Origin: Urinicoccus timonensis
GTDB lineage: Bacteria > Bacillota > Clostridia > Tissierellales > Peptoniphilaceae
Assembly (NCBI RefSeq): GCF_900232945.1
Contig: NZ_OCTU01000001.1
Location: 504,977-568,976, forward strand
Length of the DNA stretch: 64,000 bases
Direction: 5' to 3'
This document shows, piece by piece, positions 1,443 through 37,540 of this stretch; the first letter of the stretch is position 1; the number at the start of each line of letters is the position of its first letter. The notes beneath the pieces are model-generated. The model saw only the letters and a list, made by a program, of their open reading frames with translations, had not been told where the DNA came from and searched no databases. The translations under genes and the position numbers were made by a program.

Positions 1443-2027
1443 ATGGCAAAATACAGTTACGAATTGAAGAAGAAAATCGTCGAGGAGTACTTGTGTGGTA
1501 AAACAAGTTATCAAGCCTTAGCAATGAAATACCAAATCGAGAAGTCCGTTCTCAGGCTATGGATTAGCAATTACAAAAATTATGGCGATGAAGGCTTAAT
1601 GCGCTCTAGAAATAATCGTGCGTATAGTGTAGAGTTTAAGTTAGAAGCTATTACACGCTATGAAACGAGCGAATGCAGCTACCGACAACTTGCCCTCGAA
1701 CTCGGTTTGACGAATCCGTCCATGATTGTCAATTGGCGAAGACAGTACCGAGAGAAGGGCATCGAGGGGCTGCTCCCGCACAAGCGAGGGAGACCTGTGA
1801 CAAAGAAAAATGACCACAACCAACCACCAAAAACTGTAAAGAAAAGCGAATCCATCGACGCCTCCACACGCGAAGCATTGGAAAATCGTATCAAAGAATT
1901 AGAGGCAGAAAATCGGAAACTTACCATTCAAAAGATGTTCTGGGAACAGCTCAGGAGTTTGGAGAAAGAAGAAGCAATGAACAAAAGGCGAAGATTGTCT
2001 CCAAACTCCGAGAACAATTCCAACTAA
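1443..2027 (+). CDS. IS3-family transposase OrfA (helix-turn-helix protein)
   Basis: A 194-residue protein with two consecutive insB/IS150-type helix-turn-helix units (about residues 1-50 and 55-110; SYELKKKIVEEYLCGK and then SVEFKLEAITRYE). A C-terminal leucine-rich coiled coil follows (ALENRIKELEAENRKL). OrfA binds the element ends. The orfB frame overlaps its 3' end from about 1979. No convincing A6G slippery heptamer is visible, so whether OrfAB is made by frameshifting is unresolved. Confidence 0.9.
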   Translation: MAKYSYELKKKIVEEYLCGKTSYQALAMKYQIEKSVLRLWISNYKNYGDEGLMRSRNNRAYSVEFKLEAITRYETSECSYRQLALELGLTNPSMIVNWRRQYREKGIEGLLPHKRGRPVTKKNDHNQPPKTVKKSESIDASTREALENRIKELEAENRKLTIQKMFWEQLRSLEKEEAMNKRRRLSPNSENNSN

Positions 2028-2068
2028 TAGAGATTCTTGCCGCCATCCATTTCCCAAAGTCCACCTTT

Positions 2069-2869
2069 ATGTATTGGCAGAAAAAATGGTCCGAAGAAGA
2101 CAAGGATCAATCCTTAAAAGACGAAATCCTTGTCATTCGGAGCCAACACAAAGACTATGGTTATCGCCGCATTCATCTGGAATTAAAGAACCGGGGCCAG
2201 GTGGTGAACAAAAAGAAAGTGCAACGATTGGTCCAAGACATGGGTCTTCAAGTCCACTCCTATGGTAAGAAATACAAGAAGTACAATTCCTACAAAGGCG
2301 TCGTGGGGAAAATCAAGAAAAACCGAATCAACCGCCGGTTCAATACCAGCATCCCCTTGCAAAAAATTACCACAGACACCACAGAATTTAAATACTATGA
2401 AGAAGATAAGACCGGGAAACTTCAAACAAAGAAACTCTATCTCGACCCCTACATGGACATGTACAACCTGGAAATCATCAGTTACGTCCTATCCGATCAG
2501 CCCAATGGAGTCACCATGCTGCAAGGTTTAGAAGTAGCCATTGAGCGAACAAAGGCCTGTCCTTATCGACGGACCTTTCACTCCGATCGTGGTTGGGGTT
2601 ATCAAATGACCGCATACCAAGCCATGTTAGAAAAACATCATATTTTCCAAAGTATGTCAAGAAAAGGCAACTGCTATGACAATGCACCTATGGAAAACTT
2701 CTTTAGCCTATTGAAAAGAGAAATCTACTATGGCCACAATTACCGTAGTCGTGAAGAACTGGTGCAGGCAATTGAGCAATATATCCGTTACTACAACGAA
2801 GATCGAATCAAAGAAAAGTTAGGAGGTCTAAGTCCAAAGCAATACCGTGAACGCATGCAATCCGCATAG
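2069..2869 (+). CDS. IS3-family transposase OrfB (DDE integrase)
   Basis: The catalytic subunit of the insertion sequence. The first ATG gives 266 residues, but the frame is open upstream to about 1960 and would add conserved OrfB-like residues (EQKAKIVSKLREQFQ), so the native product may start earlier or arise by a -1 frameshift from orfA. It has the HTH_21-type region (DYGYRRIHLELKNRG) and the rve integrase core with the expected D, D and E: TTDTTEFKYY, TFHSDRGWGY and APMENFFSLLKRE. It appears intact and so potentially active. Confidence 0.9.
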   Translation: MYWQKKWSEEDKDQSLKDEILVIRSQHKDYGYRRIHLELKNRGQVVNKKKVQRLVQDMGLQVHSYGKKYKKYNSYKGVVGKIKKNRINRRFNTSIPLQKITTDTTEFKYYEEDKTGKLQTKKLYLDPYMDMYNLEIISYVLSDQPNGVTMLQGLEVAIERTKACPYRRTFHSDRGWGYQMTAYQAMLEKHHIFQSMSRKGNCYDNAPMENFFSLLKREIYYGHNYRSREELVQAIEQYIRYYNEDRIKEKLGGLSPKQYRERMQSA

Positions 2870-2891: not shown

Positions 2892-2920
2892 AATCGAGTA
2901 AGCGAAATGCTTACTCGATT
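2892..2920 (+). terminator. terminator hairpin near IS right end
   Basis: A perfect 12-bp stem (AATCGAGTAAGC / GCTTACTCGATT) with loop GAAAT, just after the orfB stop and before the right inverted repeat. The same hairpin, with one mismatch, is in the solo IS end at about 48150-48178. Confidence 0.6.
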
Positions 2921-2970: not shown

Positions 2971-3693
2971 CTAGCTCCGATCATCTAAGAGGCCATACTT
3001 CACCTGGATTCTTTGAATTTTTTCCAAAAAACTTTCCCCAAAGAAAAATAAAAAGGCAAAGGTCCCTGTTGCATGGATCAAATCAATGGGGAGTCCTCGA
3101 AGATAGGATAAGACAATCATGTCCTTATTGATTTCTTCATAAAAGCTAATGACGGAAATGGGGTTCATAATGGACCCAAAAAAGAGAAAAATCGATAAAA
3201 ATCCGTAACTTCCCATGGTCCACTTGTTTTTGGGAAGCTTGAATTTGTCAAACAGGCTTCCGGCGACAAAGCCAATAATGCCAAAGCAAAACATCTGCCA
3301 AGGGCCCATGGGGCCCTGGCCAAAAGAAAAGTTTGACACAAACATAATCATGGCCCCTACAACAAAGCCTGCTTGAGGCCCCAGGGCAATAGCTGAAACA
3401 ATGGTTACGGCCGCCACAGGTTTTACATGGGGAATCCAAAAAAAGGCCATCCTGCCGGCCACTCCTATGGCTGAAAGACCGGCAATTAAAATCAACTCTC
3501 TGGTTTTAACCCCCCGGCGTTCAAAGAGAAAAAGCAGGGGCAGGCTGGTTAGGAGCAAGATACATAGGCTGATAAAGAGGTATTTTCGATCATTTAAAAC
3601 CGTCATGCCAAAAATCAAGAGGCCGGGAATACCAATAAAGATAACCAGGCCAGACAAAAGACTTACCAGACGATTTTTTTCCCTAGTCTCCAT
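2971..3693 (-). CDS. ECF transporter S component, substrate unknown
   Basis: An integral membrane protein of about 240 residues with at least six hydrophobic segments, resembling substrate-binding (S) subunits of energy-coupling-factor importers. The stretch VKPVAAVTIVSAIALGPQAG followed by a glycine-rich GPWQMFCFGIIGF segment is typical of vitamin/corrinoid-type S components. No ATPase or T subunit is nearby, so it would use a shared module encoded elsewhere. I chose METREK (3693) over the upstream ATG at 3702 because GGGAG lies 9 bases before it. It overlaps the end of the NifK-like gene by 11 bases, so the genes are translationally coupled. The substrate is probably what the nitrogenase-like enzyme acts on, or its product; this is inference. 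Confidence 0.75.
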   Translation of the reverse strand: METREKNRLVSLLSGLVIFIGIPGLLIFGMTVLNDRKYLFISLCILLLTSLPLLFLFERRGVKTRELILIAGLSAIGVAGRMAFFWIPHVKPVAAVTIVSAIALGPQAGFVVGAMIMFVSNFSFGQGPMGPWQMFCFGIIGFVAGSLFDKFKLPKNKWTMGSYGFLSIFLFFGSIMNPISVISFYEEINKDMIVLSYLRGLPIDLIHATGTFAFLFFFGESFLEKIQRIQVKYGLLDDRS

Positions 3694-4957
3694 AGCCTTC
3701 ATCTCCCATTTTTAAACCATTGAGGACTTTTTCTAAAATATAGAGGGCTCCTTGGGGACCATAGAGGGTTTTTTCCAAGACATCCAAGTAGCCCATGGTG
3801 GGACCTTGAATTTCCAGGCCCCGGACTCTTTTGTCTTGGGCCATGGCCTGGGCCAGGTCATTGCCATCCCCAAAGACCATTTGGACCCGGTCCAAGGAGG
3901 CCAATTTTTCTTCCATTAAGATTTTTTCAAAGGCCGGGTAGGACCCCTGGCTACAGGTAATTTGCCCCGGCACCATACCCAGATAGTTTTTCAAAAAATC
4001 CTGGAAGGGCAAGAGGAGGGACGCTGGTCCACTTAGAGAGTAACCAGCCCCCTTGGGTAATCCCAAAAGGGACGAATAGCGAGCCAAAAAGATGTAGGCT
4101 CGGCCCCGGGCTCTTTGGATTTCTTCCATAACTGGATCCAAATCCATGGGAAGGATCCGGGCCAGGTCCTTGAAAAAAGCTTCCGTTGCATCAAAACCCA
4201 CAGGCTGGCCCTTGGGGGGAATCCAATAGGGCATGGCGTATTTTTCCTTTAAATATTTTGCCAGGTCCAGACCGTCTTCTGGACTCAGGACAAGGTTGAG
4301 CTTGGCCCTTCTCAGATCCTTGATTTGGTCCAGTCCCTGGTCAAAAAAGTAGGTCCCTACTTCCAAACCAGCCTTGGACAAGAGGTCTTTCAGACAGGCA
4401 ATATTTCCCATAACATGGTTTTGGAGGAGGGAAAAGCCCAGGAGGTTGACCCGGTTTTTTTCCACAGGTAACTGGGCCGGTTGGAGTTTTTCCAAGAGGG
4501 CCACCAGGCCCTGACTCAAACCCTTTCCAAAGGCTTGAGAATACAGAGGGGTGGGAATAAAAACCGTCAAGGGTAGGCCTGGAACCCGGCTGGCGATTTT
4601 TTCCAGGTCATCTCCAATAAGGGCTGCTCCCGGAGAATTCACCACGGCCAAAAAATCAGGCTTCCGGTCTCGAATGTCTTCCAAAAGATCTTGGAGCTTT
4701 TTTTCCACGCCATAGACATAGTCCTTGGCATCTAAGTAGGTACAGGGAACCCGGCTTTGACCAAAGTAAAATTCCTGGGGATAGGATTGGGGGTCAAAAG
4801 AAACGGACCTTAAGAGGGCCCCATCCACCACAGCCGAATGATAAAACTTACAACCGGTAGGGCCGTTTAGGAGGGTCATCCCTCCCCGGAGGCTTTCCAG
4901 GCCAAAGATCAAGCCGGAAAAACTGTCAGCCTTGATATTTTCTAAAGTATTTTTCAT
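3683..4957 (-). CDS. nitrogenase component 1-like protein (NifK/BchB-like subunit)
   Basis: About 424 residues, the second catalytic-component subunit of a nitrogenase-like enzyme. The start MKNTLENI is chosen because GGAGGAAGG directly precedes it; it overlaps the fusion gene by 32 bases. It has NGPTGCKFYH with Cys36, matching the cysteine of the NifK HGSQGC motif. At the NifK TTCxxxxIGDD position it has NSPGAALIGDD, with serine or alanine instead of cysteine. The first NifK P-cluster cysteine is also missing. It can therefore offer only one cluster ligand, as expected for a single [4Fe-4S] shared with the partner subunit rather than an 8Fe P-cluster. The gene lies between the fusion and the ECF S component. 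Confidence 0.8.
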   Translation of the reverse strand: MKNTLENIKADSFSGLIFGLESLRGGMTLLNGPTGCKFYHSAVVDGALLRSVSFDPQSYPQEFYFGQSRVPCTYLDAKDYVYGVEKKLQDLLEDIRDRKPDFLAVVNSPGAALIGDDLEKIASRVPGLPLTVFIPTPLYSQAFGKGLSQGLVALLEKLQPAQLPVEKNRVNLLGFSLLQNHVMGNIACLKDLLSKAGLEVGTYFFDQGLDQIKDLRRAKLNLVLSPEDGLDLAKYLKEKYAMPYWIPPKGQPVGFDATEAFFKDLARILPMDLDPVMEEIQRARGRAYIFLARYSSLLGLPKGAGYSLSGPASLLLPFQDFLKNYLGMVPGQITCSQGSYPAFEKILMEEKLASLDRVQMVFGDGNDLAQAMAQDKRVRGLEIQGPTMGYLDVLEKTLYGPQGALYILEKVLNGLKMGDEGYGD

Positions 4958-7097
4958 CCTTCCTCCACCCTTCTTGTACATTTTGTTGGAAAATCGTCAC
5001 CCACCTCTTGGCCAAGGCAATTCCCGATTGGAAGCCCCCTTCTGGGGTCAGTTGAATGGTATCATGGTAGGGGGCATCGTCCATGTTGGGGCCGTTGTAG
5101 TTGGCCAAAACCAGGTCAGGCTTAAGCCGGCTCACATCCTGCCGTCTTTTTTCCGCCGTATAGTCCACTTCCCAATCCAAGATCTTGTCCTTAAAGGGGT
5201 TTTCCGGGTAGACGTCTTGGGAAAAGTTAATCATCCCCACCTTGACAATGTCCATGCCCAGGTCCAGGGCTGTTTTTAAAATCCAAGTCAGCTTGTTGTT
5301 GTAGGCCACCACCATGAGTTTCTTCCCTTGGAGGTAGGGCCGGTACTTGTCCATCTGCCTTTGGTAGTTTTCCCTTTCCCGGGCCATGATTTTTTTTGAA
5401 ACTTCTTCCTTGCCGTAAAAGCGGCCCAGGGCCTTGATAAAGTCCATGGATTCTTCATAGCCAATGGGCAGGGCATGGGGAAAGAAGTTCAGGTCATAGG
5501 TCTTTTTGAAAAAATCTTCCAGGATGGTATTCATATAATCATGGTAGGCCGGCAGGTGGAGACCCGCCCTTAGGAGGGTCCGGACAGAGTCTGTAGAAGT
5601 CTCATTTAAGTAACGGCAGTGGACCTTGGCCCCAAAGGCCCCCAACCAGTCCTCCAGAATTTTAAAATTCCCACTGGTGGCATTGGCAATGGGTTTTTCC
5701 CCATAGAGGTTTACCAGGTAGGGGTCGGGTTTTTCCTGGGGGTCCACCAAAAATTTTGCAATTTCCTGGTAGGCCAAAATCATCCCCTGCATATAGTCCC
5801 CGGATAAATTTCCATCGGTTTTTAAGGCCAAGATAGGCGTTTCAGGTCCTGCCAGGTCCCTTACCCCATCTACATCATCTCCAATAATTCCCGAAGGACA
5901 GGTGGTAACCAAGACCACCAGGGCCGGTTTTTTCTCCAGGGCTTCTTGGAGGACCCTTCTCAAGTCCTGGATGCCACCAAAAACCATGGCGTCTTCCCCC
6001 AATTCCGAGGATAGGATTTTGGGATGGACCTGGACAGGAAGGATCTTTTTCTTTTCAAAAAGAGACCTCCGACCCAGGGAAGAAATGGCCTGGTAGGACA
6101 GGTTGGCACAAGACCTGGGCCCATGGCTGATGATAATGGCGTCCTTTACTTGGACGGCAATATTCATGGCCCCGTTATAGGCGCAACCGTGAAGGGGTTC
6201 TTGCTTGACCAGGGCCTTGGAATAGGTCCCCCGACCCTGGCTGGGGTTTTTCTCCTTGGGCCCTCCCGCTTCTTCGGGGACTTCCTTGCGGATTTTGTGG
6301 CCCAAAACCACCTCTTCCAATTCATGGTCCCCCAGGGGCTTGGCCGGATATAAGCGACTTTGGTCCCAAATCTTACCAGCAATCCGGTCCATTTCCAAAG
6401 CCACGGGAGAATCTTCAGCCCCCTCTACCACACATTGGCCATGGCGTTCACAGGCGGCAAAAATCAGATCTCTTGGAATTTCTCCCAGGATGGGTAGACC
6501 CACTGCTTGGGCAAATCTTTCCACCCTTTGGAGTTCTCCCTCAAAGCCCCTTTCATTGAAAATCAAGCCCCCAGCCCGGGGACCCTTTTGACTATAATTT
6601 GCCAGACCCCGTAAAATATTGATGGCCGCATAAACCGACATAAATTCCCCGGAAGTGACAATATAGACTTTTTCTGCATACTGGTCCCTTAGGGGAACGG
6701 CAAAGCCCCCACAAACCACATCACCTAAAACATCATAGAGGACAAAGTCATAGTCCTTCCTGTCCAGGCCCAAATTTTCTAAGAGCTCAAAGGTAGATAA
6801 AATCCCCCGGCCGGCACAGCCCACACCAGGTTCCGGTCCCCCAGCCTCTACACAGTCAATGGAATAAATCCCTTGGTGGACCACATCAGCCAGTTGGTAG
6901 TCCAGGGGCCCCACCTCCCGCATATAGTCTAAAACAGTCTTGCAATCGCGACCATGGAGTAAGAGCCGGGTGGAATCATGCTTGGGGTCACAACCAAGCT
7001 GCAAGACCCTCTTCCCCCTTTTAGCCAGGGAGGCTGAAATATTTGCAGATACTGTCGACTTGCCTATTCCACCCTTTCCATAAATTGCAATTTCCAT
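4926..7097 (-). CDS. fused nitrogenase-like reductase and catalytic subunit (NifH-NifD fusion)
   Basis: A 723-residue fusion. Residues 1 to about 265 are a NifH/BchL-type ATP-dependent iron protein: P-loop GKGGIGKST (7-15), Cys94 in GVGCAGRG and Cys129 in GDVVCGG, the two ligands for the bridging [4Fe-4S] cluster. A charged linker (about 268-292) leads to a NifD/BchN-type domain. It has Cys305 (HGCAYNGA), Cys330 (HGPRSCAN) and Cys400 (TTCPSGIIGDD), the three D-subunit cluster ligands. At the NifD HCYRS position, which holds the FeMo-cofactor cysteine, it reads HLPAYHDY with no cysteine. No nifB, E, N or V genes are near. It is therefore unlikely to fix nitrogen and more likely reduces another substrate. 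The start has AAGGAAGG about 7 bases upstream. Confidence 0.88.
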   Translation of the reverse strand: MEIAIYGKGGIGKSTVSANISASLAKRGKRVLQLGCDPKHDSTRLLLHGRDCKTVLDYMREVGPLDYQLADVVHQGIYSIDCVEAGGPEPGVGCAGRGILSTFELLENLGLDRKDYDFVLYDVLGDVVCGGFAVPLRDQYAEKVYIVTSGEFMSVYAAINILRGLANYSQKGPRAGGLIFNERGFEGELQRVERFAQAVGLPILGEIPRDLIFAACERHGQCVVEGAEDSPVALEMDRIAGKIWDQSRLYPAKPLGDHELEEVVLGHKIRKEVPEEAGGPKEKNPSQGRGTYSKALVKQEPLHGCAYNGAMNIAVQVKDAIIISHGPRSCANLSYQAISSLGRRSLFEKKKILPVQVHPKILSSELGEDAMVFGGIQDLRRVLQEALEKKPALVVLVTTCPSGIIGDDVDGVRDLAGPETPILALKTDGNLSGDYMQGMILAYQEIAKFLVDPQEKPDPYLVNLYGEKPIANATSGNFKILEDWLGAFGAKVHCRYLNETSTDSVRTLLRAGLHLPAYHDYMNTILEDFFKKTYDLNFFPHALPIGYEESMDFIKALGRFYGKEEVSKKIMARERENYQRQMDKYRPYLQGKKLMVVAYNNKLTWILKTALDLGMDIVKVGMINFSQDVYPENPFKDKILDWEVDYTAEKRRQDVSRLKPDLVLANYNGPNMDDAPYHDTIQLTPEGGFQSGIALAKRWVTIFQQNVQEGWRKDEKYFRKYQG

Positions 7098-7190
7098 TTT
7101 AAACCCTTCCTTTCTTATTTGCCCATGGACTTATCTCCTAGAAAAGATACTTTCCCCATGACTTAAGCCCTCACAACCATCCCGAAAAAC

Positions 7191-7222
7191 AAAAATCCCA
7201 AAACAAGAAGCCTGGGATTTTT
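7191..7222 (-). terminator. Rho-independent terminator after the SLH gene
   Basis: AAAAATCCCA and TGGGATTTTT form a 10-bp stem with a 12-base loop, followed on the minus strand by a T-run. It separates the upstream SLH gene from the nitrogenase-like operon, so that operon probably has its own promoter in the roughly 90 bases before 7097. No clear promoter was recognised there. Confidence 0.75.
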
Positions 7223-7252
7223 ATTTTATGTTAAGTTGTCCATAAGTTTAAT

Positions 7253-7996
7253 TTATTTTAAGCCTGCTAGTTGGTTGATTAATTGAACAGCTTCTGCTCT
7301 TGAAATTTCTGCCTTTGGAGCAAGACCTTCAGGGCGTCCCTTAACAAGGTTCTTTTCTACCATTATAGCACAAGCTTCTTGAGCCCAGGAGTCAATTTCC
7401 TTCTTATCTTTAAATTGGTCTAAAACAGCCAGGTTGGCTTTTTGCTTGTCAAGAGTTCTGGCCAACATGGAGAAAGCTTCTTGACGGGTAATGGTGGCAT
7501 TGGGATCAAAGTTTCCATCTCCACGACCAAAGATGATTTCATGGGCAGTGGCAATATTGATGTCTGCTGCATACCAGTCTGTGTCTTTAACATCCTTGAA
7601 GTCCTTGCTTTGTCTTTGACCCAGGCCCAGGTTCAAACCTTGGACAAGACCTACGGCAAATTCTCCCCGAGTAATGGCTTTTTCAGGTTGGAAGTCCTTG
7701 CTTTCATTGGCAATTCCATAGCCCTTGCTTTCTGCAATTAGCTTTTCAGCCCAGTTGCCCTTGATATCCTTAAAGACTTCTTCTTTAGCTTCTTCTTTTT
7801 TGGCGTCTTCTTTGGTGTCTTTCTTAACTTCTTCCTTAGCGTCTTTTTTCGCTTCTTCTTTTTTAGGAGCTTGGGTTTCTACTTTTGCCGGATCTTTTTT
7901 ATCTTCTTTTACTTCCGTTTCTGCAAAAATTTGTCCTGTTACAGAAAATAAAAGGACAAGAGCCAATCCAAGTGCTTGTTTTTTTGTGTTTTTCAT
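7253..7996 (-). CDS. S-layer homology (SLH) domain protein with charged linker
   Basis: 247 residues. The start MKNTKK is chosen because AAGGAG precedes it by 7 bases; an upstream in-frame ATG lacks a ribosome-binding site. There is a signal peptide (about 1-25, cleaved after IFA) and then about 50 residues almost entirely of K, E, D and A, probably an extended spacer. Three SLH units follow (FKDIKGNWAEKLI..., FKDVKDTDWYAADI... and the weaker DQFKDKKEIDSWAQEA...). SLH triplets bind secondary cell-wall polymers, so this is a small wall-bound protein with no other domain. It could be a spacer or structural S-layer component. Its function is unknown. Confidence 0.8.
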   Translation of the reverse strand: MKNTKKQALGLALVLLFSVTGQIFAETEVKEDKKDPAKVETQAPKKEEAKKDAKEEVKKDTKEDAKKEEAKEEVFKDIKGNWAEKLIAESKGYGIANESKDFQPEKAITRGEFAVGLVQGLNLGLGQRQSKDFKDVKDTDWYAADINIATAHEIIFGRGDGNFDPNATITRQEAFSMLARTLDKQKANLAVLDQFKDKKEIDSWAQEACAIMVEKNLVKGRPEGLAPKAEISRAEAVQLINQLAGLK

Positions 7997-8527
7997 TTTT
8001 TTCTCCTTTTTTGGAAATTTTAGAAGAAAGTTTGCCATGTAGGGTTTTTTATTTAGGAATAGGTCCTATTTATAAAATCTTATAGAAATAAGCCCCGAAT
8101 GGTTTCCTTGATCAAAATTTCTTTTCAATCCTTATTTCTTTAAACAAACTTAACATGAAAAGTCGCTGTTCATTGCCTTTTCTAAGTTATAAATATAGCA
8201 GGTTTTTGGAAATAAATCCAGTTACAATCCAGTAAAATTCTTTACAAAACCATTACGTTCCCGTAAAGTTTTCTTAGATTTTTGCTAATGATAACTTTTT
8301 TCTTCGTAGTGCTTTAGAGTTTTGTCCACTTATTGAAAGACACTTGGTCAAGCCAAGCGCCCTTCTTTCATTTATAAATTTTAGAGGTGGAAAAAGCTTT
8401 TTAAGGCTGAAATGGAGAGAGGGGTGAAAGCAGCAAAAATTGAGCTTGGGGGAGATGCTTTCACCCAAAGATTTATGCTCCTGAAATAGGCCGTTTCCAG
8501 CCCAGAAATAAACAAATTTTTCCAATA
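7997..8527. other. AT-rich gap between SLH gene and riboswitch terminator
   Basis: About 530 bases with no convincing gene. A minus-strand reading frame at 8274-8525 begins with TTG, has no ribosome-binding site and no recognisable similarity. It follows the riboswitch terminator directly, so it may be the decayed remnant of the gene the riboswitch once controlled. Confidence 0.4.
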
Positions 8528-8556
8528 AAAAAACATTGGATTCACCAATGCCCGTA
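8528..8556 (-). terminator. terminator downstream of cobalamin riboswitch
   Basis: On the minus strand GGCATTGG, loop TGAAT, CCAATG and then TTTTTT. It lies directly after the riboswitch aptamer, as expected for a transcriptional OFF switch. Confidence 0.65.
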
Positions 8557-8599
8557 TTTGCACAGATATATTAGGGTGTAAATAGACGTTTCCTCGCGT

Positions 8600-8750
8600 C
8601 TTACACAAGCTTTTATGCATGTATTCTGACTTACCTATCCTAACAGACTATCCCTTCCCGAAAAATTTCAGTGGTTTCGATAGCCCACTCCTGGTTTACA
8701 GCGGCGGGACCGGTTTGGACTTGCACCAAATTCCATCTTAGCCTTCATCA
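8600..8750 (-). promoter_or_regulatory. cobalamin riboswitch without an evident target gene
   Basis: Read on the minus strand the region carries the conserved cobalamin aptamer blocks: GGTGCAAGTCC, CGGTCCCGCCGCTGTAA, a GGGAAGG block and a B12-box-like AGTCAGAATAC. The core CGGTCCCGCCRCTGTAA is nearly identical to the one at 15370-15440. The next intact gene in the same direction is the SLH gene about 600 bases away, past a terminator and a gap with no clear gene. Confidence 0.85.
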
Positions 8751-8864
8751 AGTGAAAGAACATAAAAGTTATATTTTCTTATATTTCTATTATAAGCTAA
8801 ATGCTTCCTCTTTGCAATTGTTTTCTTCTAAAATCCCACCATAAAAAAATCCCACCATAAAAAT

Positions 8865-8886: not shown

Positions 8887-10188
8887 AGCTTGGTCCAAGC
8901 ATTCCACTTGAACTTTTTCAATCCTCTTATCCTTCACGCTTAGGGCGGTTAGGATGTTTTGGTTTTCATAGATGACCTGGTGGGGCTGCTTGTCATTTTC
9001 TTCTGGGATAAAACCCAATAGTTCAATGGTTAGCCCGGACAGGGTTTCGTGGTTTTCCGAAACAAAGTCTGTATGGATGGCGTCATTGATGTCGTCCAGG
9101 TCCATGGACCCATCGATGATGTAGGTATGGGAATTGATCTGCTCAATGCCCTGGTCTACGGTATCGTACTCGTCTTCAATGTCTCCGACGATTTCTTCCA
9201 CAATGTCTTCCATGGTGACCATGCCGGAAAATCCTCCGTATTCATCAATTAAAATGGCAATGTAGTTTTTAGTGGACTGGAGCTCTTTGAGGAGCCGGTC
9301 CACGTTTTTACTTTCGGGAACGAAGTAGGGTTCTTTCAGGATTTTGTCAATATTGATGGTCTTGTACTGGCTCTTGGCGTATTCCACAAAAATATCCTTG
9401 ATGTAGACGGTACCAATGATGTTATCTGTGTCCTCCTGGTAGACCGGGGCTCTGGAATAGCCAGTTTTCAGCATCTCTGAAATGGTATCTGTGGTAAATT
9501 CGTCATAGTCGATCATGTAGAGGTCTGTTCTGGGGGTCATGATTTCATAGGCCTTGATGTCGTCAAAGTCCATGATGGAAACCATCATTTCTTCTCCAGA
9601 CAGGTTGATAACGCCTTGTTCTTTCCCAACCCGGATGTAGGATTTTAATTCTTCTTCGGAAATTTGCTCTTCAACATCGTCAGAATAGTTTCCTGTAATC
9701 TTGAGAAAAAATCCTGTTAAAAGAGATAGAAGCCCCACAAAGGGCAGGCTGATAATCCGGAAGAATTCAACAAAGGATACCAGGCTTAAGCCTACTTTTT
9801 CCGGTGCTCTCAGGGCAATCCGCTTGGGAATTAATTCCCCAAAGAGGATGGAGAAAAAGGACAGGACAAAAATCACCAGGATAAAGGCCAGGCTAGGATT
9901 TAAACCCCAATGACTGACTATATAAGGAGCCAGGTCCTTGGCAGCTAGACCAGCTGAATAAAAACCCGTCAGGACAATCCCCACCTGGATGGTGGATAAA
10001 AATTGTGTCTGCTTGCCTGTAACCTTTAAAAGCAGGCGGGCCTTTCTGGACCCATCTTCTTCTTTTTCTTGTATTTTCCCCTTGTTGGATGATACTAAGG
10101 CCATCTCTGCTGCGGAAAAAAGACCATTTACAATTGTTAGAATAATTATGATTAAGAGTGGTAGACTAAACCCCCCACCATCATCCAT
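8878..10188 (-). CDS. hemolysin/CorC family (DUF21-CBS-CorC_HlyC) membrane protein
   Basis: 436 residues. It has an N-terminal DUF21 membrane domain with about four helices (about 1-170, starting LPLLIIIILTIVNGLFSAAEMAL), a CBS pair (about 200-330, with IMTPRTDLYMID and YGGFSGMVTMEDIVEEIVGDI) and a C-terminal CorC/HlyC domain. The family includes Mg2+/Co2+ efflux-related proteins (CorC/CNNM, MpfA), and a divalent-cation role is likely. The start is supported by GAGGAGG eight bases upstream. It sits between two cobalamin-riboswitch regions but is not clearly in either transcript. Confidence 0.88.
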   Translation of the reverse strand: MDDGGGFSLPLLIIIILTIVNGLFSAAEMALVSSNKGKIQEKEEDGSRKARLLLKVTGKQTQFLSTIQVGIVLTGFYSAGLAAKDLAPYIVSHWGLNPSLAFILVIFVLSFFSILFGELIPKRIALRAPEKVGLSLVSFVEFFRIISLPFVGLLSLLTGFFLKITGNYSDDVEEQISEEELKSYIRVGKEQGVINLSGEEMMVSIMDFDDIKAYEIMTPRTDLYMIDYDEFTTDTISEMLKTGYSRAPVYQEDTDNIIGTVYIKDIFVEYAKSQYKTINIDKILKEPYFVPESKNVDRLLKELQSTKNYIAILIDEYGGFSGMVTMEDIVEEIVGDIEDEYDTVDQGIEQINSHTYIIDGSMDLDDINDAIHTDFVSENHETLSGLTIELLGFIPEENDKQPHQVIYENQNILTALSVKDKRIEKVQVECLDQAKH

Positions 10189-10227
10189 AAAAAAACCTCC
10201 TCGTTTTTTTATTTATTATATCAAATA

Positions 10228-11004
10228 TTAGTTGGAATTACTATCTCTTCCTTGTTTGAAGAAGTCTCCCAAAAGTTTGACGGACATGGGGTGGGTGGGT
10301 TTTTTAATCTCTTGGCCATCTTGGATGTCCAAGCGGTCAACGATTTCTCCCTGGTCCATGATAATGACTTGGTCGCAAAGGCCATAGGCCAGTAGGAAGT
10401 CATGGACGATAAAAAGGTAGCTTAAATTATGTCTTTCCTTGATATGGACCAGGAGTTGGAGGAGTTGTTTTTGGACCAGGTAGTCCAAACCACTTAGGGC
10501 TTCGTCTAAAAGAAGGATCTCTGGCTCTTGGATTAGGGCCCGGGCGATGCAGAGTCTTTGGACTTGTCCACCACTGAGTCTCCGGGCGTTTTCATCTAGG
10601 TTAAGGTGGCCCAGACCTACTTGGTCCAGGGTCTTTTTGATTTTGTCATCCCGGTCTTTTTTATCCAGCTTTTGGTCCATGAATTTAAAGGGTTCTTCCA
10701 TGACCATTCTCATGGTAAAGTTGGGGTTTACAGCTCCATAGGCATTTTGAAAAACCACTTGTACCTTTTTACGGAGTTGTCTTCTTTCAAGACGGGTCCG
10801 GTCTTTGACGGTTTTGCCATCAAAGTAGATCTGTCCCCCATCGGGCTTCTCCAGTCCTACAACCAAGCGTCCCAGGGTGGACTTGCCACTGCCGCTTTCC
10901 CCCATGATTCCCAAACAAGTAGAACTCTTTACTTCCAGGTTCACCGATTTTAAAACGGTTTTTCCATTATAGGATTTTGTTAAGTTTTCAATCTTTAAAT
11001 CCAT
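10228..11004 (-). CDS. peptide/nickel-type ABC transporter ATPase (DppF/NikE-like)
   Basis: 258 residues. The start MDLKIENLTKSY is chosen because AAAAGAGGG precedes it; a longer frame to 11070 lies inside the upstream gene. It has Walker [10 protein letters not shown], signature LSGGQVQRL, Walker B ILLLDEALSGLD and switch His in FIVHD. It is the last gene of a five-gene minus-strand operon and overlaps the preceding ATPase gene by 17 bases. A cobalamin riboswitch heads the operon, so its cargo is probably cobalt, a cobalt chelate or a corrinoid-related compound rather than ordinary peptides. This is inference from the regulator. Confidence 0.9.
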   Translation of the reverse strand: MDLKIENLTKSYNGKTVLKSVNLEVKSSTCLGIMGESGSGKSTLGRLVVGLEKPDGGQIYFDGKTVKDRTRLERRQLRKKVQVVFQNAYGAVNPNFTMRMVMEEPFKFMDQKLDKKDRDDKIKKTLDQVGLGHLNLDENARRLSGGQVQRLCIARALIQEPEILLLDEALSGLDYLVQKQLLQLLVHIKERHNLSYLFIVHDFLLAYGLCDQVIIMDQGEIVDRLDIQDGQEIKKPTHPMSVKLLGDFFKQGRDSNSN

Positions 11005-11797
11005 AATCCCTCTTTTCTGGTATATCCCGGTAGCGCTTATAGGTTCTAGGAGCCAGAAGGGCCTTGCCATACTCGCTCTTGGGGTTTTTTAACACTTCTT
11101 CCAAGGGACCACTTTCAATGAGATCGCCTTTTTTCAGGATGACGATCCGGTCTACCAGGCGCTTAAGGAGCCGGTAGTCATGGGTGATGACCAAGAGTTG
11201 GGTCCCCTTGCTCTTGCAAATTATCAAGAGGTCAGCTACATTTTCTGCATTCCAACTGTCCAGGGCTGAGGTGGGTTCATCGGCAATAACCATGTAGGGG
11301 TTTAATTCCATCATCATGGCCAGCATAACCCTTTGGAGCATCCCTCCACTGAGTTGGAAGGGGTATTTTTTCAAAAGGTCCCGGCTGTTTTCCAAGTTGA
11401 AGTCTTCCATGGCTTGGACGAACTTCTCCCGGGCCTGGTCTTTTGATATTTTTAAAAGGCTGGTTAGAACTTCCAGTCCATGGGACTCTATGGTTTGCAT
11501 TTCATTAAAGAGGCCATGGGGGTTTTGGGCAATGTAGGCAATTTTCCGTCCCCGGATTTCTTGCCAGTCTTTTTCCTTTAATTTTAAAATATCCCAATCC
11601 CGATAGGTCAATTCTCCTTGAATGTCTGCTCCTTGGGGTTTTCGGCCGATTAAGAGCCTAGAAAAGAGGGTCTTACCGCTGCCGCTTTCCCCTACAATGC
11701 CCAAGGATTCGTGGGCTTCTAATTCAAAATTTAAATGGTTTAAGAGGACCCTATCCTTGATTTCTAGGGTCAGGTCCTTGACAATTAGTCTCTCCAT
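10988..11797 (-). CDS. peptide/nickel-type ABC transporter ATPase (DppD/NikD-like)
   Basis: 269 residues, the partner of the following ATPase. It has Walker A GESGSGKTL, signature LSGGMLQRVMLA, Walker B MVIADEPTSALD and His in VITHDYRLL. It starts with MERLIVKDLTLEIK and overlaps the upstream permease gene by 13 bases. Heterodimeric ATPases of this type power DppBC/NikBC-type permeases. It lacks the C-terminal oligopeptide extension seen in OppD proteins, in keeping with the shorter Nik/Cnt-type ATPases. Confidence 0.9.
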   Translation of the reverse strand: MERLIVKDLTLEIKDRVLLNHLNFELEAHESLGIVGESGSGKTLFSRLLIGRKPQGADIQGELTYRDWDILKLKEKDWQEIRGRKIAYIAQNPHGLFNEMQTIESHGLEVLTSLLKISKDQAREKFVQAMEDFNLENSRDLLKKYPFQLSGGMLQRVMLAMMMELNPYMVIADEPTSALDSWNAENVADLLIICKSKGTQLLVITHDYRLLKRLVDRIVILKKGDLIESGPLEEVLKNPKSEYGKALLAPRTYKRYRDIPEKRDYGFKD

Positions 11798-12597
11798 AGG
11801 TCAACCCTTTCTTGTTTCTTTAGGTATTCACCTAAGAGGTTAAAGGTCACGACTGTAATTAAAATAGCCATACCTGGATAGATGGCCAGGCCTGGAATGG
11901 ACCGGATATAGGACTTGGCGTCGTTGAGCATCATGCCCCATTCGGACACATTGGGTTGGACCCCAATGCCCAGGAAGGAAAATCCGGAAATCATCATGAC
12001 CACTTCTCCAATACTCATCAAGGCCATAATTAAAATGGGTTTAAAGACAAAGGGCAGGATGTGAACTCTAAGGATATAGGGTACAGGTGCCCCCATGGTT
12101 TTAGCTCCCAAGACGTATTCTTGGTCCTTCATTAAAACCACCATGTTCCGAATGACCCGGGCATAGGGAACCCAGCCGACAGACGAAACAGCAATGATGA
12201 TGTTACCCAGGCCTTGGCCCAAAATTCCTGCAAAGGCCATGGACAAGAGGAAGGGAGGAAAGGACAAAACGATATTGGTTAACCAGGTGAAAGTTTTTTC
12301 TAGGCCTCCACCGGCCCAGCCCACCATGAGCCCCAAGGGAACGCCAATGCACAAGTTAATCAAGGTCACGATTCCGGCAATACTTAGGGACAGCTGGGTC
12401 CCAGTTACCAGTCTGGAAAAAACGTCCCGACCCATGTGGTCTGTTCCCAACCAATGGTCCGGTCCAGGCAGTTGAAGCTTGGCTGATAGTTCTACAAATT
12501 CAGGATTGTAGGGGGCCAGATATTTGGCGAAGATGGCAATAAAGACCAGGGTCAGGGCCATGGATAGAGCTATATAAAAAAGAATTGGTTTTTTCAT
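11785..12597 (-). CDS. peptide/nickel-type ABC transporter permease (DppC/NikC-like)
   Basis: 270 residues with an N-terminal helix (FYIALSMALTLVFIAIFAKYL), the conserved entry loop GTDHMGRDVFSRLVTG, and five further membrane helices carrying the BPD_transp_1 signature around EYVLGAKTMGAPVPYILRVH. It overlaps the upstream permease by 4 bases. It forms the membrane channel with the DppB-like protein. Confidence 0.9.
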   Translation of the reverse strand: MKKPILFYIALSMALTLVFIAIFAKYLAPYNPEFVELSAKLQLPGPDHWLGTDHMGRDVFSRLVTGTQLSLSIAGIVTLINLCIGVPLGLMVGWAGGGLEKTFTWLTNIVLSFPPFLLSMAFAGILGQGLGNIIIAVSSVGWVPYARVIRNMVVLMKDQEYVLGAKTMGAPVPYILRVHILPFVFKPILIMALMSIGEVVMMISGFSFLGIGVQPNVSEWGMMLNDAKSYIRSIPGLAIYPGMAILITVVTFNLLGEYLKKQERVDLWRD

Positions 12598-13553
12598 TCC
12601 TTACCTCCCAGTCTCGTTCTCGGGTTAATAAAGTAAATCAGGCTTTGGGTGCCTCCATTTAGGATGATGGCCATGAGGCCAAAAAGAAGAAGGGACCCTT
12701 GGATCAAGGGTAGGTCCGAAGTCCGAACAGCCCCTACAAACATCCGACCCAGTCCGGGCCAGGCAAAGACCTCTTCAATTAAGACACTTCCTGAAATAAC
12801 ATACATGATATTGGACGATAAGACCGTCATAAGGGGAATTTTTATGTTGTTCAAGAGGTGGTTTTTTAGGATATACTTTCTATCCACTCCCCGAACCAGG
12901 GCATTTTCCACATGGGGCTTGGCCATTTCTTCCAAGAGGACATTGCGGATAAATAGACTGGTTTGGCCCACCAGGGGCAGGTTCAAGCAAATGGCCGGCA
13001 GGATGTAGTTGGCAAAGCCTCCCCGACCTGAGCTGGGTAAAATTTGTAGTTTAACTGAAAAAAATAAAATCAGCATGTAGCCCAGCCAAAAGACAGGAAT
13101 GGATACAAAGAGGAAGGACAGGCCTTGGACCAGCTTGTCCACCCAGCTTTTATTGTAGATGGCGGCTAAAAAGCCCCCCAGACTGGAAAAAATTAAAAGA
13201 AGGACAAAGGACACCGCCCCCAATTGCAGGGTGGGAATGGTGGCATTGGCCATGACGTGGAGGACGGGCATTTTTTTGACATAGGAATTGCCCAGGTCTC
13301 CCTTGACGGCCTTGCCCAGCCACATGGTGTATTGCTTGGTTACCGGCTTGTCCAGGTTTAAATAGGTCCTGGCCCGAGCCAAACTTTCATCATTAATCCC
13401 TACGTGGATGGTTCTAAGATAGTTGGCTGCTGGGTCTCCCGGTTGTATCTTGACCAAGACAAAGGTAAAGATAGAAATCACTACCAGGGTTAAAAAGAAT
13501 AAAATGATTTTTCCCAGGCCCTTGGCCAGGGGATTTTTCTTCATTAGAGGCAT
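12594..13553 (-). CDS. peptide/nickel-type ABC transporter permease (DppB/NikB-like)
   Basis: 319 residues. The N-terminal helix and the following FVLVKIQPGDPAANYL loop are typical of DppB/NikB permeases; the BPD_transp_1 core follows (LYLGAVSF-like helices and the VLIEEVFAWPGLGRMFVGAV loop). GGGAG lies 6 bases before the ATG. A strong hairpin (13577-13604) separates it from the binding-protein gene, which probably lets that gene be expressed at a higher level. Confidence 0.9.
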   Translation of the reverse strand: MPLMKKNPLAKGLGKIILFFLTLVVISIFTFVLVKIQPGDPAANYLRTIHVGINDESLARARTYLNLDKPVTKQYTMWLGKAVKGDLGNSYVKKMPVLHVMANATIPTLQLGAVSFVLLLIFSSLGGFLAAIYNKSWVDKLVQGLSFLFVSIPVFWLGYMLILFFSVKLQILPSSGRGGFANYILPAICLNLPLVGQTSLFIRNVLLEEMAKPHVENALVRGVDRKYILKNHLLNNIKIPLMTVLSSNIMYVISGSVLIEEVFAWPGLGRMFVGAVRTSDLPLIQGSLLLFGLMAIILNGGTQSLIYFINPRTRLGGKE

Positions 13554-13576
13554 AGCAGACTCCCTTTAGATAAAAG

Positions 13577-13604
13577 AAAAGGGATAGTTTCCACTATCCC
13601 TTTT
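13577..13604 (-). terminator. intra-operon attenuator hairpin
   Basis: A perfect 12-bp stem AAAAGGGATAGT / ACTATCCCTTTT with a 4-base loop, followed by TCTTTT on the minus strand. It lies between the solute-binding-protein gene and the permeases. Partial termination here would give more binding protein than permease. Confidence 0.75.
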
Positions 13605-13607
13605 GAC

Positions 13608-15242
13608 TTACTTGTTATCATGAACTTTACTTGTTGAAAAAACGGGGAGGCGGTTTTCTTCAGGCATGAATTTAACATTTTCCAATTCGCCAGCCCGGTA
13701 GACGCAAGTAAAGGCTTGGTAGGTGACGGGAATATAGACTGCTTGTTCGTTTAAAGTTTTTAAAACGTAAGCATATTCTTCCTTCATCTTGTTTTGGTCC
13801 GGTTCTACCAAAAGTTTGTTGATGGTATCATAGAGTTGGTCTCTCATGGGTAGACCCTTTTGAGCTGCATTGTCAGGGCTTCCATTTTCAGATTCCACAG
13901 CCATGGCTTGTAGGACGGCATGGGGATCCCATGGAGCACCCCAGGTGTAGTTTACCATAAGGTCAAAGTCACCCTTGGCTGCATTGGACCAGTGAGTTTT
14001 TTCTTCCAGAGCATTGAGTTCAACGTCTACACCAAGTTTTTTCCATTCACCTTGGACATATTCTGCCAGGCTCTTGTCGCTGTTTTTACTTGCAACAAAG
14101 GGGAAGACAAGTTTTAATTTTTGACCATCTTTTTCCCGAATTCCATCGGATCCTTTGACCCAACCGGCTTGGTCTAGGAGTTTTTCTGCTTCTTCTAGCT
14201 TGTAGTCGTAAATTTCTACTGGAACATCGGTATTTGGTACGTTCTTAGCAAAAAGGGTATCGGCTGGTTGTTCAACTCCGCCAAAGATGTTTTTAGAAAC
14301 ACTTTCCTTGTCGACGGCATGGCTTAAAGCCTTACGAACAGCAAGGTCTTTTAGGGGACCTCTAGATGTGTTGAATAGGATCATCCGAGTGGACATTGGG
14401 TCAGAGCTTTCAGCTACATACTTGTCATCATTTTTGTAAGTGGTGAAACGGTCTAGACTGATTAAGCCGTTTCCGTAAACCATGTCTAGGTTTCCTGCTT
14501 CAAATTCCAAGGCTGTGGTTTCTGCATCAGGAATGGCCTTAATGGTTACTTCTTTTACGCCAGGTTTTTCACCCCAGTAGTATTCGTTTTGTACGAAGGT
14601 TGCATATTCGTTGTCTTTGTGGTCTTTTAAAACCCAAGGACCGGTTCCGATGGGAGCCTTGATTCCCTTGGCAGTATCTCCATCATCTGGGAAACCTGCA
14701 TCCCCCAACATACGGATGGGGCGGATCATGGCCAGGTCATAAAGAGCAGCTGAATAAGGCTTGCTTAGGGTTAATTCAAAGGTATAGTCGTCCATTGCCT
14801 TGAAGCTATCCAGGTAGTTGGTAAAGGTAAACCAGTTGTGGTTGGGCTTGTTTTCTTCAGAGAAGATGGTCTTGAAGTTCTTTTCAACATTTTGGGCATT
14901 AAAGTCAGATCCGTCTGAGAACTTAACTCCTTGTCTTAAGTGGAAGGTATAGGTCTTTCCATCTTCTGAAATATCCCAGGATTCTGCCAGGGATGGTTTG
15001 ATTTCGCCGCCTTCTCCATAGTATACCAAGCCTTCATAAACCATATCTTGGGTTACGAATTGGCTGGGAAGGTACATATGGGGGTTTAACTCTCCTACTG
15101 GGTCCTCGTTAAAGGGGATGGTTAGGGTGTCGTCAGATGCTGCTCCATCTCCAGCAGCTCCTCCCTTGCCACAAGCGCTTAAGCCAAGAGCTAGGGCAAA
15201 CAGGCAAAAAATTGCCAAGAGTCTTTGGGTTTTCTTTTTCAT
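13608..15242 (-). CDS. ABC transporter solute-binding lipoprotein (family 5, DppA/NikA-like)
   Basis: 544 residues with a lipoprotein signal peptide and lipobox (ALGLSACGK, Cys about 24) and an SBP_bac_5 domain (VYEGLVYYGEGGEIKPSLAE, GTGPWVLKDH). The ATG at 15242 is chosen (AGGAG 6 bases before); a GTG lies directly upstream. It heads the five-gene transporter operon, behind a cobalamin riboswitch and its terminator. Family 5 proteins bind peptides, nickel chelates, cobalt/nickel-metallophores or haem. The riboswitch points to a cobalt- or corrinoid-related ligand. Binding-site residues cannot be judged from sequence alone. Confidence 0.9.
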   Translation of the reverse strand: MKKKTQRLLAIFCLFALALGLSACGKGGAAGDGAASDDTLTIPFNEDPVGELNPHMYLPSQFVTQDMVYEGLVYYGEGGEIKPSLAESWDISEDGKTYTFHLRQGVKFSDGSDFNAQNVEKNFKTIFSEENKPNHNWFTFTNYLDSFKAMDDYTFELTLSKPYSAALYDLAMIRPIRMLGDAGFPDDGDTAKGIKAPIGTGPWVLKDHKDNEYATFVQNEYYWGEKPGVKEVTIKAIPDAETTALEFEAGNLDMVYGNGLISLDRFTTYKNDDKYVAESSDPMSTRMILFNTSRGPLKDLAVRKALSHAVDKESVSKNIFGGVEQPADTLFAKNVPNTDVPVEIYDYKLEEAEKLLDQAGWVKGSDGIREKDGQKLKLVFPFVASKNSDKSLAEYVQGEWKKLGVDVELNALEEKTHWSNAAKGDFDLMVNYTWGAPWDPHAVLQAMAVESENGSPDNAAQKGLPMRDQLYDTINKLLVEPDQNKMKEEYAYVLKTLNEQAVYIPVTYQAFTCVYRAGELENVKFMPEENRLPVFSTSKVHDNK

Positions 15243-15303
15243 CACATTCTCCTTTTCTGGTTTTGATTTCGGAGTTTATCAGACTGAACCATTCCCTTGT
15301 TGG

Positions 15304-15336
15304 TAAAAAAAAATATATAGACCTAGATCTATATAT
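15304..15336 (-). terminator. riboswitch-controlled terminator before the transporter operon
   Basis: On the minus strand TATATAGA, a 6-base loop and TCTATATA, followed by nine T. It sits between the cobalamin aptamer and the binding-protein start, the expected expression platform of a transcriptional riboswitch. Confidence 0.75.
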
Positions 15337-15349
15337 ACTTCCTTTCTTA

Positions 15350-15465
15350 CTAAGTCACTCGCTTAAATTCAATACTGCAGAGGTAGCCTGGCTTTACAGT
15401 GGCGGGACCGCATAGGACTTGCACCTATTTCCCCTCATTCAATTTGGTTCTAAACTCCAAAATAC
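15350..15465 (-). promoter_or_regulatory. cobalamin riboswitch controlling the 10228-15242 ABC transporter
   Basis: On the minus strand the conserved aptamer blocks are GGTGCAAGTCC, GCGGTCCCGCCACTGTAA, AGCCAGGCTACC and a B12-box-like GAGTGACTT. A terminator with a T9 tail follows before the coding sequence. When adenosylcobalamin is abundant, the operon should be switched off. Known targets of such switches are corrinoid and cobalt transporters and B12-independent enzymes. Confidence 0.88.
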
Positions 15466-15518
15466 AGCACTATTTACTTGTATGTGGATATTGTATAGAA
15501 TTTGTAAACTAATGTCAA

Positions 15519-18878: not shown

Positions 18879-18880
18879 TC

Positions 18881-30868: not shown

Positions 30869-30913
30869 CTTTATTCTCCTCTTTTTTCTTCTCTTCATCT
30901 ACCTATTTCATTC

Positions 30914-30937
30914 CTTTGGCCGGTCTCCCGGCCAAAG
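30914..30937. terminator. strong GC-rich hairpin between NEAT genes
   Basis: CTTTGGCCGG / CCGGCCAAAG with loop TCTC. On the minus strand, where the genes are read, no T-run follows; on the plus strand ATCTTTTTAA follows. It may be a processing or attenuation hairpin setting the level of the last NEAT gene. Confidence 0.5.
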
Positions 30938-30943
30938 ATCTTT

Positions 30944-35455: not shown

Positions 35456-35513
35456 TTTTTCTCCTTTCAAATACAATCAAACTTTTATCCTTTGATGTGT
35501 TCTTTCTTTTTAC

Positions 35514-37526: not shown

Positions 37527-37540
37527 GTTTTCCTCCTTAC

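Follow-up and report, generated by a model that had tools for sequence, protein, structure and literature searches.

We analysed a 64,000-nucleotide stretch of the Urinicoccus timonensis genome (contig NZ_OCTU01000001.1, positions 504,977 to 568,976; hereafter the window) that carries a nitrogenase-like gene pair, here called HD and K, followed by an importer gene, S, in surroundings that point to uptake and salvage of vitamin B12 and related corrinoids. In HD, a NifH-like (H) and a NifD-like (D) part form one open reading frame (ORF). The three genes, with an energy-coupling factor (ECF) component encoded by the last, lie as follows.

4926..7097, minus strand: HD fusion ORF, 723 amino acids (aa), NifH-like Fe protein, linker and NifD/E-like catalytic subunit
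6303..7097, minus strand: NifH-like domain of HD, residues 1-265, with the P-loop GKGGIGKS
6189..6302, minus strand: HD linker, about residues 266-303, from model confidence
4929..6188, minus strand: NifD/NifE-like domain of HD, residues 304-723, with C305, C330 and C400
3683..4981, minus strand: NifK/NifN-like subunit K, 432 aa, probable start at 4957
2971..3702, minus strand: ECF S component, 243 aa, from Pfam families and the PDB match 6fnp_A

The initial annotation had described a NifH-NifD fusion, a K-like partner and an ECF S component, and all three were borne out by the Pfam scan. The single intact HD ORF matched Fer4_NifH (PF00142, 304 bits, residues 1-265) and Oxidored_nitro (PF00148, 241 bits, residues 305-703), K matched PF00148 with 143 bits, and S matched the ECF S families PF07155 and PF12822 with 36 bits each. 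The ORFs as listed overlap by 56 bp (HD and K) and by 20 bp (K and S). K probably starts at Met9 (4957), because most aligned homologues begin there, and from this start its overlap with HD is 32 bp, the commonest overlap of the family. The AlphaFold model of HD has a mean predicted local distance difference test score (pLDDT) of 78, with residues 270-303 under 50, and this segment is read as a probably disordered, flexible linker. Structure comparisons used single-chain models; they placed the Fe-protein half of HD on nitrogenase Fe proteins with a template modelling (TM) score of about 0.9 by target length, all 50 Foldseek hits among the matches listed were Fe proteins, and the K model superposed on NifK, Mar and BchB chains.

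The same fusion is present in the genomes G001 (98% identity), G002 (67%) and G019 (63%). That nifH and nifD were joined by a frameshift or a sequencing error, one of the refutations foreseen in the initial annotation, is ruled out by these homologous fusions and by the clade that they form. A homologue search with HD in 5.8 billion proteins scored 7993 candidates, 2975 of them below E 1e-3, and both Pfam domains were found in 120/120 homologues, among the matches listed. The acetogen Eubacterium callanderi is among the carriers of the fusion. In a tree of 108 H domains, built without Isr reference sequences, the 44 fused rows and four broken fused pieces made up one group with a Shimodaira-Hasegawa-like approximate likelihood ratio (SH-aLRT) support of 96, and its members come from Bacillota, Spirochaetota, Methanobacteriota, Thermoplasmatota and Myxococcota. 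The broken pieces are the four seemingly unfused rows within the clade: three lie at contig ends, and L054 encodes only part of the fusion (585 aa). For the tree sample, a single fusion event accounts most simply for this group. K adjoins HD in 41/44 fused loci and overlaps it in 40 of those 41; among the three loci without an adjoining K, L229 stops at the HD gene. The supposition that the fusion is unusual for its clade is thus not supported, and the fusion was already reported in 2012 as "data not shown" in Archaea, Firmicutes and Deltaproteobacteria, with the same gene arrangement as HD-K; the accessible part of that report assigns the fused genes neither a function or substrate nor an operon or riboswitch link (PMC3464626).

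Near-duplicates (L001-L003, L036) and short slices (L004-L030, L117-L172) were dropped from these sets. The tree and the marker count given below cover 44 fused loci; the cysteine alignment covers 166 sequences (46 fused loci and 120 proteins), including the fused loci L232 and L233, which lie outside the tree and the marker count and were apparently missed by the motif filter. A plasmid search matched 260 records, none spanning 80% of HD. Two homologues of about 1100 aa (P0088, P0103) carry HD plus extra Pfam domains such as PF00931 and PF20720, and in L034 (7492-10828) a second, unfused NifH-like gene (10016-10828), preceded by a weakly K-like ORF, lies downstream of the fused HD-K pair.

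A cobalamin riboswitch lies upstream of HD in the window, and around it and the three genes we found the following features.

8599..8780, minus strand: cobalamin riboswitch aptamer RF00174, 97.3 bits (gathering threshold 31.5), full model 1-189
8789..8817, minus strand: promoter-like site TTGCAA-17-TATAAT just upstream of the aptamer, consensus match only
8531..8553, minus strand: terminator-like hairpin with a T run, directly past the aptamer and a candidate for its expression platform (consensus match only)
7253..8038, minus strand: S-layer homology (SLH) protein gene between riboswitch and HD, from Pfam
2892..2920, minus strand: terminator-like hairpin downstream of S that may mark the 3' end of the unit (consensus match only)

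The consensus scan found no terminator-like site on the minus strand in the 155 bp between the SLH gene and HD. The transcription unit likely extends upstream to about 8817, taking in the SLH gene and the riboswitch, and we infer that the riboswitch controls HD-K-S. Promoter-like sites in the region showed no excess (8 found vs 7.5 in shuffles), and terminator-like sites were somewhat more numerous (19 vs 11.8, standard deviation 4.0).

The importer component points in the same direction. The only significant sequence match of S in the PDB was 6fnp_A (E 1.1e-4, residues 67-235). This structure is ECF-CbrT, according to the accessible text a dedicated vitamin B12 transporter (PMC5997447), of which S of the window is a distant relative. 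EcfT-like and EcfA-like genes, absent from the operon of the window, are found in the operons of G001 and G002. In G001 the order is riboswitch, a 147-aa ORF, an EcfT-like gene (293 aa), an EcfA-like gene, a gene for a 512-aa SLH protein, a further SLH gene, a DUF4430 gene (PF14478, 65 bits), HD, K and S. The EcfA-like protein is a double-ATPase that matches TIGR04520 with 278 bits, below the cut-off of 315, and the EcfT-like protein, named from its position and appearance, had no Pfam or NCBIfam match. G002 has the gene set of G001 minus the extra SLH gene, as assigned by homology, and its weaker riboswitch (34.6 bits) stands directly before the EcfT-like gene. The riboswitch region of the window is 86% identical to that of G001. 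Relative to G001, the window has two gaps.

7141..8319, no strand: region of gaps relative to G001, near the SLH genes, from the DNA alignment

At 8013-8319 the window lacks about 4.7 kb, comprising most of the 147-aa ORF and the EcfT-like, EcfA-like and 512-aa SLH genes; at 7141-7187 about 1 kb is gone, the body of the DUF4430 gene. Because G001 and G002 both have these genes, the simplest reading is that the EcfT/EcfA block and the DUF4430 gene were lost in the line of the window. The window strain therefore appears to retain S without a dedicated ECF motor at the HD-K-S locus. By eye the 512/518-aa SLH proteins look transcobalamin-like; Pfam shows only SLH in them, with L112 adding a Prenyltrans match below cut-off. 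DUF4430 or such repeats are presumably tied to B12.

The ECF S gene is not a constant companion of the fusion, a point that the initial annotation had raised: it occurs in 4/44 fused loci (the window, L111, L112 and L113), all from the family of the window. Outside this family, ATP-binding cassette (ABC) importers of the BtuFCD type occur in some lineages, and many loci have no importer nearby. Import and reduction of a small molecule, as put forward in the initial annotation, is supported.

Cobalamin riboswitches recur before the fused genes. On the same strand and within 8 kb upstream of HD, RF00174 was found at 9/30 bacterial fused loci against 0.56 expected, a count in which the window and L111 are near-copies. 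The expectation derives from the genome-wide density, loci without a density of their own being given the highest seen (26 per 2.9 Mb); the scan covered 30 of the 44 fused loci, with Myxococcota L038 and 13 archaeal loci outside it. Counted by lineages, as we grouped them, the riboswitch stands upstream of HD in 4/10 against 0.53 expected (tail 8e-4). Riboswitches precede HD in L033 and L034, and in L230 two stand in tandem before it (7741-7925 and 8250-8440). Two further riboswitches lie in the L230 locus, one of them before a gene for a 1781-aa DUF4430 protein.

The fullest gene context was found in the Treponema-group. In L220 and L222 the order is riboswitch (47.0 and 32.9 bits, respectively), TonB receptor, BtuF-like, BtuC-like (FecCD/BtuC-like) and BtuD-like (ATPase) genes, HD, K, CobU, CbiR, CobT and CobS. 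CbiR exceeded its curated cut-off in the 3/3 Treponema-group proteins tested (L219, L220, L222). In L220, CobT passes its cut-off, CobU and CobS pass Pfam cut-offs and not those of NCBIfam, and the best NCBIfam match of the TonB receptor is a B12 receptor model, far below cut-off. A PduO-type adenosyltransferase gene (PF01923, 46-52 bits) lies just upstream of BtuF in L219, L221 and L225, and in the corresponding place in L032.

Elsewhere the markers are more varied. L033 adjoins CbiX and genes reading as hem/cbi; TIM-barrel genes directly upstream of HD in L033, and also in the unfused locus L074, were not confirmed as CbiR by NCBIfam. Archaeal L037 has CobN (over cut-off), ChlI/ChlD-like genes and FecCD permeases, L042 has a CobN-like gene, and L040-L042 have FecCD permeases. 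In total, 17/44 fused loci carry a corrinoid marker by genes, 19 when the riboswitch-only loci L033 and L034 are added and 20 with L176, whose riboswitch is downstream; among the 17, L113 counts by S only, L217 by a TC-like gene on the opposite strand and L228 by a match of DUF4430 type. FecCD- or BtuF-type genes were counted as markers and are not, alone, taken as proof of a corrinoid. A CobA- or PduO-type transferase (PF02572 or PF01923) was found in 29/34 genomes with the fusion.

The corrinoid association is, on these gene neighbourhoods, wider than the fusion, because unfused H, D and K genes (HDK) also sit among B12 genes and riboswitches. Sporomusa L074 reads riboswitch, TonB receptor, riboswitch, TPR, separate H, D and K, FecCD, ATPase and CobA, the CobA passing its cut-off; in Phascolarctobacterium L106, in L108 and in L061, H-D-K is surrounded by BtuF/FecCD or TonB genes. 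Riboswitches lie upstream of HDK in L061, L106, L108 and L115, a biased rate of 4/6, since the six unfused loci were picked for transporter or CobN markers. In the family or order of the window, L115 (G028), L114 (G057) and L116 (G025) have divergent unfused H, D and K among BtuF/FecCD/ATPase genes, with a cobalamin riboswitch in L115. A gene looking like flavodoxin lies near the divergent H/D/K of L116. As a control, 12 Bacillota loci whose NifH-like genes are unfused, selected ahead of the scan, gave RF00174 in 1/12, and this one was L074, where the unfused HDK lies among B12 genes.

CobN bears on another explanation, in which HD-K acts with CobN-type chelatases in cobalt or metal handling and releases or inserts the metal of scavenged tetrapyrroles. 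CobN lies over cut-off near HDK in L037, L106 and L071, and a corrinoid-starvation operon of Dehalobacter, under a cobalamin riboswitch, holds FepBCD/BtuCD-type transporters, CbiZ, CobN and Mg-chelatase subunits according to the accessible text (PMC4285132). CobN is nevertheless near only 2/44 fused loci (L037, L042), with none in the window or the Treponema-group, and we regard this explanation as highly improbable. In the Negativicutes, L071, L106 and L108 have CobN or CobN-like chelatase genes near HDK.

The metal ligands of HD-K were then read from the alignments. C94 and C129 of the NifH-like domain, which we take to be cluster ligands by the NifH motif, are invariant in 166/166 sequences. 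So are C305, C330 and C400 of the D domain, which correspond in the alignment to Cys62, Cys88 and Cys154 of NifD, ligands of the P-cluster; K has one invariant cysteine, C44, in 24/24 sequences. The position of the FeMo-cofactor ligand, NifD Cys275, is Tyr518 in HD and is variable among relatives (of 166 sequences, Y 100, F 16, H 12, W 11, N 8, S 7, C 6, A 3 and others 3), the rows with cysteine including five Methanosarcina-group loci. This pattern suggests that three cysteines of D and one of K hold a single cluster, predicted to be [4Fe-4S], and that HD-K would lack a FeMo-type or other complex cofactor and be fit for transferring electrons one at a time to a bound molecule.

No curated NCBIfam cut-off was passed by HD (best 25 of 32 matches) or by K (14) among the matches listed, which agrees with the initial annotation in leaving the system unassigned. 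HD scored 310 bits against a cut-off of 394 for nifH, 101 against 654 for nifD, 98 against 505 for nifE, 190 against 345 for BchL, 26 against 420 for BchN and 311 against 402 for CfbC, and K scored 68 against 490 for BchB. N2 fixation was rejected on the non-conserved Cys275 position together with the nifH and nifD scores below cut-off.

The single-cluster ligand pattern would also suit a reductase of the type of dark-operative protochlorophyllide oxidoreductase (DPOR) or CfbCD, acting on a C=C or C=N bond of a corrin or tetrapyrrole ring in synthesis, processing or breakdown. These relatives without a FeMo-type cofactor act on tetrapyrroles, and the CbiX and hem/cbi-reading genes beside L033 and the CobN genes near L037, L106 and L071 fit such a role. 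However, HD-K shares its operons with genes for uptake, adenosylation and the nucleotide loop, and no CbiC match was found in 13/34 genomes with the fusion, most of uncertain completeness; one of the 13 is G980, whose genome is a single 3.86-Mb contig and which contains the operon L222 in full. A step in de novo ring synthesis alone is unlikely because of these genomes, and ring reduction as a whole seems to us rather improbable.

We propose that HD-K is a nitrogenase-family, ATP-driven corrinoid reductase in B12 uptake and salvage, with a probability of roughly 0.55. The link to corrinoid salvage is well supported, and HD-K probably reduces scavenged vitamin B12 with ATP rather than fixing nitrogen. 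That a corrinoid is the substrate we consider very probable; for Co(II) to Co(I) as the reaction, which is less certain, the odds are about even, and they are similarly balanced for the view that the fused bacterial and archaeal clade is a dedicated B12 enzyme making Co(I) corrinoids for adenosylation during salvage. Adenosylation requires Co(I), which lies at a very low potential. HD-K would fit this gap, because by eye no reductase gene other than HD-K was seen in the Treponema-group operons.

In the proposed mechanism, the cobalamin riboswitch would turn the operon on when corrinoid is short, and the surface and ECF (elsewhere BtuFCD) gene products would import the corrinoid. The tethered Fe-protein domain, driven by ATP, would hand single electrons to the [4Fe-4S] cluster held by the three cysteines of D and the one of K, from which each could move to a corrinoid in the D-K cavity. 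The corrin cobalt would be reduced to Co(I), on which an ATP:corrinoid adenosyltransferase (CobA or PduO type) would then act. Because H is tethered to D, the two are made one to one, and an (HD)2K2 complex would presumably hold one Fe-protein dimer's worth of H, compared with two on NifD2K2.

The same uptake and remodelling context could be read differently, with HD-K stripping the upper ligand of imported corrinoids by reductive decyanation or dealkylation and so readying them for remodelling by CbiR, CobU, CobT and CobS. Imported corrinoids do carry varied upper ligands. Co(I) formation, however, would itself expel many of these, so that genomics hardly separates the two, and for the CbiR step ligand removal would be unneeded to judge from Akkermansia CbiR, which in the accessible text accepts adenosyl- and methyl-cobalamin (PMC7733943). 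We consider upper-ligand removal as the main task of HD-K unlikely.

Several observations weigh against a corrinoid reductase. Genomics cannot separate cobalt reduction from another reductive corrinoid step. At the window locus, the EcfT/EcfA block and the DUF4430 gene present in G001 are gone, and a weak promoter-like site before HD (7125-7096) could uncouple HD-K-S from the riboswitch. Neither a corrinoid gene nor, with 30 of the 44 covered by the riboswitch scan, a cobalamin riboswitch was found in 24/44 fused loci, among them all nine Methanosarcina-group loci and two of the eight Treponema-group loci (L223, L224), and RF00174 matched in 0/5 archaeal genomes with the fusion tested. Five of the 34 genomes (G641, G828, G830, G831, G982) have neither PF02572 nor PF01923, and markers also occur in 9/64 unfused rows, including the B12-linked L061, L074, L106 and L108. 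In L053, whose genome is G828, a gene reading by eye as cysteine synthase directly follows K, which hints at sulfur metabolism for this member. Importers of the FecCD/BtuF type also carry heme and siderophores.

The loci without a marker, the L053 gene and the breadth of these importers would suit an enzyme that is not corrinoid-specific, with heme, a siderophore, a thio-compound or some other molecule as its substrate and its B12 links being lineage-specific recruitment. Against it stand the riboswitches in several lineages, the CbrT-like S, and the CobU, CbiR, CobT, CobS and adenosyltransferase genes beside HD-K or HDK, and it appears quite improbable. Among the substrates listed in the initial annotation (tetrapyrrole, corrinoid, thio-compound or other ring), the corrinoid is now favoured and the thio-compound keeps one pointer, in L053.

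If HD-K is a corrinoid reductase, a widespread nitrogenase-like clade would gain a directly testable substrate class, which many such genes do not have. B12 biology still has to explain how anaerobes attain the very low potential that Co(I) demands, and an ATP-driven Fe protein would offer a new explanation. Members of the clade are found in Firmicutes, Treponema-group spirochaetes and methanogens; there, communities may be shaped by competition for corrinoids. NifH or NifD matches in such genomes need not signify nitrogen fixation.

Further features of the window lie on both sides of the locus. An IS3-like insertion sequence (HTH_Tnp_1 and rve ORFs, 1443-2869, plus strand) lies directly past the 3' end of S. 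A NikA-E-like metal/peptide ABC operon (10228-15484, minus strand; NikA 645 bits, cut-off 393) carries a cobalamin riboswitch of its own (15359-15484, 44 bits), which suggests B12-controlled cobalt uptake. The stretch matching this NikABCDE-like region ends 1.8 kb upstream of HD in the window and about 19 kb upstream in G001. A nickel/F430 link of HD-K through this upstream operon was rejected, its own riboswitch making cobalt the likelier cargo. A second BtuF-type ABC importer (17098-20011, minus strand), without a cobalamin riboswitch match, has its permease as two ORFs (17841-18317 and 18339-18878). NEAT/SLH-looking surface proteins are encoded at 30002-43082 (minus strand), with 35514-37526 confirmed (PF05031, PF00395), and a BtuF/FecCD-type ABC importer (38060-40668) adjoins them; the cluster and importer look like a putative S-layer-linked heme uptake system.

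Compared with known systems, HD-K would be a new functional branch of a known superfamily and not a new kind of machine; the substrate class would be new for the fused clade. To our knowledge, HD-K would be the first in the nitrogenase superfamily to act in B12 salvage. The D half has its best PDB score with a NifE chain, and HD-K shares with NifEN what we take to be the same pattern of three plus one cysteines, to which DPOR is presumably alike apart from an Asp ligand; HD-K differs from NifEN in the fused H, in its B12 uptake and salvage partners and in staying below the nifE cut-off. With DPOR (BchL-BchN-BchB) and CfbCD it would share an ATP-driven Fe protein, a [4Fe-4S] component and a tetrapyrrole substrate, but HD-K scores below the BchL, BchN and BchB cut-offs, and Cys44 of K presumably sits where BchB uses Asp. 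CfbCD differs in having no K, which is present in 41/44 fused loci, and the CfbC score is likewise below cut-off.

Methylthio-alkane reductase MarHDK (9FMG, 9D9U) provides the best profile match of K in the PDB, chain C of 9D9U (E 4e-37; apparently MarK by its length), and K matches 9fmg_B with a TM score of 0.78. MarDK, produced together with its maturase MarB, holds in the accessible text a P-cluster and an [Fe8S9C] cluster (PMC12552129), whereas in HD the Cys275-type position is not conserved and K has one invariant cysteine. In the open-access literature we saw no paper that connects a nitrogenase-like enzyme with the uptake or salvage of corrinoids; the nearest, in its accessible part, places MarHDK-like genes near corrinoid methyltransferase (mlp) clusters, read as methionine salvage (PMC10418091), and the accessible texts of two papers on cobalamin riboswitches and cobamide sharing contain neither "nitrogenase" nor "nifH" (PMC9600662, PMC9600381). 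With RamA/RACo and the activation complex of methyl-coenzyme M reductase (MCR), HD-K would share the spending of ATP for a very low-potential state of a metal-tetrapyrrole, Co(I) or Ni(I). The corrinoid activases RamA/RACo are of a different protein family from HD-K, and the MCR activation complex is said to be an ATP-driven system that reduces a tetrapyrrole metal.

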